Source: Lineus longissimus (Eukaryota > Nemertea > Pilidiophora > Heteronemertea > Lineidae). Taken from it: a DNA stretch of 64,000 bases. Under the pieces are notes generated by a model. That model was given only the letters and a program-made list of their open reading frames with translations. It was not told the DNA's origin and made no database searches. Shown one piece after another: positions 23,501 through 26,500 of this stretch. A program made the translations under genes and the position numbers. How positions within the stretch are numbered: position 1 is the stretch's first letter; every line of letters starts with the position of its first letter. The stretch covers positions 21,794,646 to 21,858,645 of the forward strand of contig NC_088311.1 of assembly GCF_910592395.1 (NCBI RefSeq). The letters run 5' to 3'.

Positions 23501-26500
23501 GGTTTTGCGTCATTCTGCCCATCTTCTTTTCCAGAACCTAACTTATATGCACTATCTGTGCGCGACTTTGACCAAAACAAACAAATATGGGTCGTAAGAC
23601 ATTACAAGATTCGACCTCTAGATGGACAAAGAGGCTACTTCATAGCTGCCAAGAAAAAATTCGCCTCCTTTGATGAATTAATTGCACATTATTCAAGTGA
23701 GTATGCGGGAAATCGTTTTACGTTGCTTCTGATCTATTATTTCAGGTCCACCGCCCCCGTATGTTTTGTCCATACGCGACAAGGACAAGGCAAGAGACAT
23801 TTGGGTTGTGCGTCATTATAAGATTTTTCCTTGTGAGAATGGCGGTTACCGCTTAAGCAAAGCTAAGGGCGTATACCCTTCCTTTGATGCATTAATTGCA
23901 AGCCATGAGAGTAAGTTTTTGATTGTGGAAATCACTAGGCTGTTTCAGCTATTCTTCCATTTTGGCCCTGGAGAATACTCTCATTTTTCCAAATACCCGC
24001 TCTCAAATTGAGTACTACTTATTAATTCAAACTTCTATTCCTAAGATTCATGAACTTTAGTTGCTTGCCAAGATGGGCTGCTGAGAAATTCTTTCTTTTA
24101 CTTTAGGCAATCACATCTTTCCTCGAGCAGGAATTTGGGACTTCTGATCAGCAGATAGCGAGTTTCAGCAGGTTGCTCAAAAGAATCTCTCACTTATGAC
24201 GTATTCTTATGAAATTTGCATACAATGTAATGGAAATCATGACACAACTATCAATACATCGATACGTCATGCATTGTTCGAAAAGAAAGTATGCTTCTGC
24301 CAAAACTCGTTATATTAGCCAATCAGAAGACACTTATGATGCTTGTTTGATGCAGAAAGCATGGACCTTGAAGCTTACAGGGCTTTTGATTGGTCATTGC
24401 CTGAGTTGAAGCCCTAAAAAAAGCTCAGTCTGCTTCCTTTAGCTCTAAGTCGTCAGAGTGATCGTCTTGTAAAGCATAGTATGGGGTTCGCCCTTCACAC
24501 AACATGATGTTCTTTGAAAATGTATCCTTTGATTATTTTAAGACTTGCAAAATGTTGAAGTTTACATCGTACAATTGCAAATAAACTCAATAGAAATCTT
24601 TGTCAATATTTTGCTCTTCTCCAAAACTGTGATTCTCCAGGGTGAATTTAAATGAGGAACCTTTATGCCGAAGCTTGTTTATAATAAGACAGATTGCATC
24701 TAACTCCGATCAGCTTGCATGTACTAAGGAGCAGGTGTTTTGCCTCGGCTCGGACAGCTCCACCTATGTGTCCGCTTTCTAATCACATTGTCACATAGAT
24801 AGACTCTTATACAGGCATTGGTGCTGCAACCTGTAATTATTATCACTGCTGTGTGTGACAAAAAGATCTCTCGTCTGCGGGTGAAACTGGTACCGGTAAT
24901 CGCTTGGTTGATATTGATCGGAGGAAGCTGATTCTCGTACAGTCCACATCACAAATGACATCCATCCTAATTCGTGTCATTGACGTGCATGATACACGCA
25001 ATGTTTATGCCGAGTTGCACTTCAATGACGCACCAGTGACGAGCTTATCTCTCTATGTTTCGCGTAAATTACGCGTGATCTACATGCTGGGTAGCACGTC
25101 AATGATGCAAATTTAGGGATGACAGTTGTGATTTGGACTCTACCTGCAATGACCATCGCAACTGCAAACTAGCGATTGTCAGTGCTTGCGATTTATATCA
25201 AAGGTTGCAACAATATAAATTGCTTCGTTCATTGCGCCGGAAATTGGTCAGAATGGTGATGATGATGATGATGATGATGATGACGATGATATACTGTAAA
25301 CACGGAAATATTTGCACAATATATGTTTGCAGATTGAAATTACTGTTATAGGTTGTCAAAATGCTTTTAAGTTGATGATGTGCCAAAGTGGCAGTTTCTT
25401 AAAAGTACGGACGATGACATATTGTAATGGCTGCTATTATTTCTGTGTTTACAATATTAACTGATTTGTTTTTTCTCGCCCCTCCTTTACCTTAAGGCTC
25501 CTTATACCACGTTCATGGCATGATATCAAATCGAACCCCTTCCCACATCGCCGTACATGTAGTAATGATCTTTAACTCTATATTATATTACACGTGTATT
25601 TGTCTGAAAATCCCATGTGGATTTTTCGACGCAAAACCCTGCAGTTATTGACACTACTTGCACAATTAAGGTGTCTTTGTATTTGTTCATAGTTTTCCGT
25701 CCTGCACATAGAAGAGGGGAAGTCTACATAGGCAGAGCAAGAGGATGGTAAAGGGTGCAATTTTCAACACATCCCCAAATGATATAGAAAAATCATTTCA
25801 ATTGATGGAGAAAAACCTTTTGGTTGTCAAAAACTGTGAATGGTCCTTGTATCTCTTGAAAATAACACCTTTTCTTGAGATCTTGGATACCATATGCCCT
25901 CTTTTCAGTCCAGTGTGCACCAACATTGGGAACTGCTAGCGCCCAGGATGATCTTTCAGACTTTTAGCTCATTGTTTCTTCAGCCGTAGCGGATGGTCTC
26001 TGTTGTTGTCTGAGCCAACCTTGCCCCCGGTACTACCGACCGCCAGTTCATTTCAAGGAGATGATTCAGAAGAAAGAGGCCTTTCAACTCGACAAGAAGT
26101 TAGGCCATGGAAGTTTTGGCGAGGTGTATCAAGGTGAGCTTTCCAGGATGAAACTTTTCAGGATTTTGTTCAATATAAGATTTGTTCAGAATCTTGTTCA
26201 AGAGAAGATTCTGGCTTTTTTCCGAAAATGTAAATGTCAAGGATTCCAGAAAAATTTTATTTGATATTTATTGAAATTCTAGGCAAATGGAATCGGTCCG
26301 TCGAGGTTGCGATTAAGACATTGAAAGAAGGCACAATGACCACGAAAGCCTTCCTACAGGAAGCGCGGACTATGCATACACTGAATCACCCTCATATCCT
26401 ACCCCTGCTTGCCGTGTGTACGGAGAGTGAGCCACTCTACATCATCACCGAGCTGATGAGGGACGGCTCGCTGCTCGACTATCTGCGGAATGAGGAGAAG

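Follow-up and report, generated by a model that had tools for sequence, protein, structure and literature searches.

We describe here a Src-type tyrosine kinase gene of the ribbon worm Lineus longissimus in which the exon encoding the second half of the SH2 domain is present as two tandem copies, 5a and 5b, separated by an intron of only 49 nt. Both copies have intact splice sites, each keeps the reading frame open from start to stop, 5b has changed in a constrained manner, and a pair with a similarly short gap appears to recur in a related metagenome contig. We consider it quite probable that the two exons are used as alternatives, that the choice between them is imposed sterically by the short intron and that the kinase can in this way be made with an altered SH2 domain.

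The gene occupies positions 20505-28188 on the + strand of the window, the 64,000-nucleotide stretch of genomic DNA that was analysed and that corresponds to bases 21,794,646-21,858,645 of contig C4, and has ten coding exon positions, with exon 5 in two copies. Isoform a (exons 1-4, 5a and 6-10) is letter-for-letter identical to P0001, named by NCBI 'tyrosine-protein kinase SRK2-like isoform X2 [Lineus longissimus]'. The coding part of exon 1 (20505-20646), assigned from splice sites, frame and identity to P0001, begins with Met-Gly, a possible myristoylation site, and encodes the unique region. The first and second halves of the SH3 domain are found in exons 2 (21402-21492) and 3 (22669-22776), each placed by frame, Pfam and the match to P0001, and exon 4 (23103-23194), common to both versions, provides the first half of the SH2 domain including the FLVR-type Arg (residue 141). 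Exons 5a (23535-23696, 162 nt; present in isoform X2) and 5b (23746-23910, 165 nt; placed by frame, splice sites, Pfam and constraint) encode versions a and b of the second half of SH2 and flank the 49-nt intron (23697-23745). Exon 6 (25984-26133), also common to both versions, encodes the SH2 BG loop and βG, the SH2-kinase linker and the start of the kinase N-lobe. The N-lobe is encoded by exon 7 (26283-26545; frame, Pfam, P0001 match), the catalytic loop by exon 8 (26921-27080), the C-lobe by exon 9 (27624-27758; frame, P0001 match) and the end of the kinase by exon 10 (27974-28188), along with a C-terminal tail containing YQP (Tyr 501) and a TGA stop. Intron lengths, in gene order, are 755, 1176, 326, 340, 49, 2073, 149, 375, 543 and 215 nt.

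A Met-Gly start, SH3, SH2, a tyrosine kinase domain with HRDLRAAN and a tail Tyr together make up the architecture of the Src family, HRDLRAAN and the tail Tyr being marks of Src kinases. The activation loop (27044-27080) of P0001 has no autophosphorylation Tyr, a site which we take to be that of Src Tyr416, and the same is true of P0002, P0003 and P0004, the three best-scoring relatives of P0001. It is missing in 16 of 104 motif-bearing matches, a few of them probably misreadings and several of them flatworm proteins by name. Because this Tyr is absent we refer to the gene as Src-type and not as a standard Src kinase.

Exons 5a and 5b are adjacent and homologous, are alike in phase (1 to 1) and length, have canonical AG/GT sites and cover the same region of the fold (SH2 residues 145-198). 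A first-pass annotation had described just such a pair of phase 1 to 1 exons, 162 and 165 nt long and 49 nt apart, with WVVRHYKI in both, and the coordinates, the splice sites and the shared motif are all borne out. Either copy, placed between exons 1-4 and exons 6-10, gives an open frame, of 505 aa with 5a and 506 aa with 5b. The frame is kept as well if both copies are included (560 aa) or both skipped (451 aa), so that such products would be prevented by splicing alone and nonsense-mediated decay would not police the errors, and retention of the 49-nt intron leads to a frameshift and a stop. The same annotation had taken each exon to encode a second half of the SH2 domain, in agreement with Pfam SH2 scores that rise from 15.2 bits with neither exon to 55.5 with 5a or 39.1 with 5b, either value being above the cut-off of 21; the score with both exons is 69.1 bits, in two stretches. 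A sequence search of the PDB finds Lck and Src SH2 domains for both versions, with best E values of 1.2e-23 (a) and 2.7e-17 (b). The 90% cluster of P0001 contains two member sequences and that of P0002, which draws on the same two sources and has no isoform number, contains one, a contrast which suggests that a second near-identical sequence beside P0001, perhaps isoform X1, probably exists. When the part of isoform b that includes 5b was used as query in a protein search, 17 candidates yielded a single match, and this was P0001, which contains 5a.

In order to gauge the constraint on 5b we compared the two copies, which are identical at 25 of 54 residues in a MAFFT alignment and at 26 of 53 when gaps are placed by hand after SH2 relatives, with 72 of 159 aligned bases differing. 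Over these 53 codons NG86 gives dN 0.54, dS 2.02 and dN/dS ~0.27, with no stop codon in 5b; the ratio comes from NG86 alone (YN00 and LWL85 gave no value) and is imprecise since dS is near saturation. Neutral change of equal size starting from 5a, with all change placed on one lineage and indels disallowed, left the exon free of stops in 7% of 5000 simulations, and an open frame together with the observed identity was obtained in none of them. An exon-5 HMM built from the corresponding segments of 115 of 119 relatives assigns 80.7 bits to 5a, 79.7 to the exon of gene A, a neighbouring paralogue, and 39.3 to 5b; all of 2000 neutrally decayed simulations score below 5b (median 0.2, maximum 32.6 bits). 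The neutral simulations and the HMM score, along with the recurrence of the pair in a related contig, argue at the level of sequence that both copies have been kept by selection.

That contig was found in a search with the 5a+5b domain, which gave a single match among 14 candidates, a genomic reading frame denoted P0121. It comes from a JGI metagenome contig of 4014 nt, known here from the protein reading alone, and its 107 aa run from the end of the upstream intron through a version of 5a with three differences in 55 codons and then into SSKYSKHVILFGLQFQVLLHHMYYR. The reading accommodates an intron of 44 nt that starts with GT and can end with CAG, with its donor inside the second Ser codon and its acceptor after FQ. 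The nine codons past this intron, read in the shifted frame, are limited to [AFILPSTV][AFILPSTV][APST][PS][HY]VL[PQS or stop], a tail in which V and L are forced and which is compatible with the 5b start, PPPPYVLS; a fit of this kind to the 5b start occurs by chance in 1 of 241,162 random open sequences. Because both the intron length and the encoded sequence differ from those of L. longissimus, the contig is probably from a second species, in which the exon pair and a gap of under 50 nt appear to be repeated. The first-pass annotation had proposed looking for the pair in related genomes, and this contig, with its 44-nt gap, appears to supply an instance. A scan of viral_contigs with P0121 gave five pattern matches and no relative.

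The short intron is central to the manner in which the two exons are likely to be used. With a simple ad hoc score the best branch-point-like heptamer is ttctgat, whose A lies 36 nt past the donor, leaving 13 nt to the 3' splice site, a predicted site that coincides with the one suggested previously at ~36 nt. A distance of under about 50 nt between donor and branch point is held to block joint assembly of U1 and U2 (PMC5740500, PMC7969005), and here the whole introns are 49 and 44 nt, so that a branch point at the predicted position falls within this distance. The smallest of the other nine introns of the kinase gene is 149 nt. Elsewhere in the L. longissimus genome, where sizes were estimated from the edges of collinear exon matches, the minimum for 33 chaperonin introns is 120 nt after correction for overlap. 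Raw exon gaps in that set start from 87 nt, a case in which the matches overlap by 41 positions and the corrected value is 210 nt, and the next raw gap is 117 nt. For 10 tyrosine-kinase introns the minimum is 189 nt corrected and 180 nt raw; of the 85 rows of kinase matches 15 fall in the window, and the full set of 70 that lie elsewhere gave the same 10 introns. Kinase matches carry up to 63 nt beyond the query span. Introns estimated at below 120 nt therefore number 0 of the 43 sampled, in a sample that leans against finding very short stop-free introns since these could hide within one match.

An intron of 49 nt, or of 44 nt in the relative, would be too short for the 5a donor to be occupied by U1 while U2 sits on the branch point, and since the two cannot both fit, 5a and 5b are most likely mutually exclusive; 5a would never be joined to 5b and one copy would be taken per transcript. 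The idea that steric hindrance forces a choice, as put forward in the first-pass annotation, is upheld as a matter of design, by gaps of 49 and 44 nt against a minimum of 120 nt, but not as a matter of necessity, as human cells are known to have introns of only 43 and 49 nt and to splice one of 56 nt whose donor and branch site are just 27 nt apart (PMC8363638). Possible steric interference is, moreover, assigned to only 9% of human mutually exclusive clusters (PMC5740500).

These considerations bear on whether both exons might simply be cassettes, or might sometimes be spliced together by removal of the 49-nt intron to give a 560-aa product containing one and a half SH2 second halves. Inclusion of both exons preserves the frame and human introns of 43-56 nt are spliced (PMC8363638), but a half-domain tandem of 5a and 5b would have no evident fold, the 5a+5b search with its 14 candidates yielded no both-exon protein, its one match being a genomic reading, none of the 43 other estimated introns is below 120 nt and both known cases have a gap of less than 50 nt; we regard co-splicing as improbable. 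We attach a similarly low probability to 5b being a decaying or never-used duplicate, with 5a alone in the mRNA. While the long branch of 5b in the exon-5 tree (1.93), an SH2 score lower than that of 5a and the retrieval of only the 5a protein from the database would all be expected of a relic, they must be set against the open frame, the canonical splice sites and the dN/dS of ~0.27, against neutral simulations of which 0 of 5000 and 0 of 2000 did as well, against the tail of the relative, which is compatible with full identity to the 5b start, and against the label 'isoform X2', which implies a further isoform, whatever its content. A false tandem copy generated by assembly is scarcely credible and was rejected: nothing was found in its favour, 5a and 5b are mismatched at 72 of 159 aligned bases, and the pair also appears to be present on an independent contig.

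What alternative use of 5a and 5b would mean for the SH2 domain can be considered with a structure model of isoform a, the only isoform modelled, that was obtained with P0001 and 39 of 119 other listed relatives and has a mean pLDDT of 85, with blocks over residues 111-210 at 88-96. In this model exon 5a corresponds to residues 145-198 and exon 5 is predicted to encode the end of the BC loop, βC, βD, βE, the EF loop and αB. With hand-placed gaps the two versions are identical at 6/9 positions in βC, 10/11 in βD (including HYK) and 1/3 in βE, at 1/5, 0/4, 1/6 and 1/6 positions in the BC, CD, DE and EF loops, respectively, and at 6/12 in the stretch of βF and αB. The differences are concentrated in these four loops, and relative to 5a version 5b has one extra residue in each of BC and EF and one fewer in DE. 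Differences in the EF and BG loops had been anticipated from the sequence; those in EF are indeed found (1/6 identical), while the BG loop lies in the common exon 6. With the FLVR-type Arg of exon 4 and the BG loop shared by both versions, the two have the same phosphotyrosine core and differ in part of the specificity surface. Two kinase forms would thus be made, their SH2 domains having a common phosphotyrosine-binding core and different peptide-groove loops, and the swap would alter the phosphopeptides that are bound and possibly also the grip on the kinase's own C-terminal tail.

Loops are the most variable parts among SH2 domains generally, so the loop differences between 5a and 5b prove no change of ligand. 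It is conceivable, if on balance rather unlikely, that the exons are alternatives that leave ligand choice unaffected and that the switch serves stability or autoinhibition. The common BG loop and phosphate-binding Arg and the nearly identical βD (10/11) would fit with this, as would the YQP that is kept in the tail and by which SH2-tail affinity could be the target of the switch. Against it are the low conservation of EF (1/6) and BC (1/5), the changes in length and the gating of SH2 pockets by the EF and BG loops, as described in PMC9783222, although these points carry little weight either way. A change in phosphopeptide specificity through the swap is plausible.

When the 391-Mb genome was searched with 5b, two matches were listed, 5b itself and 5a; the search is not exhaustive because the exon 5 of gene A, visible in a local search, was unlisted. 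A single exon 5 is present in two Src-type paralogues, gene A and L011 (C4:7495500-7504500, where C4 is the window's contig). The latter is a third Src-type kinase and has the activation-loop Tyr (EYEAR). A third, decayed copy of exon 5 was also sought, and an exon-by-exon search of the window gave clear matches only for 5a, 5b and gene A's exon 5. Among the relatives of P0001, taken as the best 120 of 7153 matching proteins, one, P0111, scores higher with 5b than with 5a (23.5 bits to 5b and none to 5a). In a tree of exon 5 (62 rows picked from the best 120 relatives, the window sequences and P0121; 53 columns) 5b groups with P0001, P0121, P0002 and P0004 of Tubulanus, and P0003, with support of 95/70, below the bar for a firm branch. 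The 5b branch is long and the topology is compatible with duplication before or after the Tubulanus split; the duplication is likely to have occurred inside the ribbon worms.

Mutually exclusive homologous exons are already known in a Src-type kinase, FYN, and the location in SH2 would be the new part. FYN, also a Src-type kinase gene, has a homologous exon pair that is tandemly duplicated and mutually exclusive (FynB/FynT), as proposed for the gene studied here, but the FYN pair covers the linker between SH2 and kinase together with the end of the kinase at the ATP site, in place of the second half of SH2 (PMC9741552). In the L. longissimus gene the linker and ATP-site region is in exon 6, single in the window. 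Neuronal SRC, another Src kinase, resembles the present case in having a ligand-binding module modified by splicing and differs in that a microexon is inserted into SH3 (PMC12369926), rather than homologous SH2 exons being swapped. The first-pass annotation knew of no prior description in Src kinases, and in a literature search with most subscription journals outside its range FYN was the only case, with no mutually exclusive SH2 exons. A branch point less than about 50 nt from the upstream donor, as predicted here, is also a feature of the mutually exclusive exons of OGDH (4a/4b), alpha-tropomyosin and alpha-actinin (PMC7969005). According to the same paper, birds and mammals have an OGDH intron of 118-131 nt in which the branch points follow the donor by 25-41 nt and are well separated from the 3' splice site; unlike in OGDH, the whole 5a-5b intron of L. 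longissimus is under 50 nt.

Several further features of the window were noted. The blocks at 5978-7021 and 40701-41737 have an almost identical tandem repeat unit of 301 nt, after which comes a long GAC array, and a further tandem repeat of 302 nt, accompanied by an ACG array, is found at 34493-35474. At 62998-63444 on the + strand an open frame that scores 54.6 bits for the Pfam DEP domain is probably an exon of another gene. Gene A is a head-to-head paralogue on the - strand, with exons found from about 14305 down. It has two complete last exons, at 8054-7846 and 3613-3405 on the - strand, of 69 codons each, which encode the end of the kinase C-lobe and the tail Tyr and have the same phase, AG acceptors and their own stops. 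They are identical at 33 of 64 residues, with dN 0.40 and dS undefined (saturated), and 0 of 2000 neutral simulations are as conserved. Searches of the window for kinase exons listed no clear example in the interval between them, and the two are either alternative last exons or the relic of a third gene.

Putting these together, we offer tentatively, as a proposal whose chances are slightly short of even, that ribbon worms may switch the phosphotyrosine specificity of a Src-type kinase, and perhaps its self-inhibition by the tail, by choosing between two SH2 half-domain exons on either side of an intron of <50 nt, that gene A may independently offer two alternative C-lobe/tail exons and that the locus would in this way diversify through exon duplication at both regulatory ends. 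SH2 specificity is usually thought to diversify through gene duplication. A half-SH2 swap at the level of splicing would, if true, provide two naturally matched domains in one protein and a direct test of how loops determine SH2 specificity, and the gap of under 50 nt, seen twice, would be a natural test of the steric exon rule outside vertebrates.
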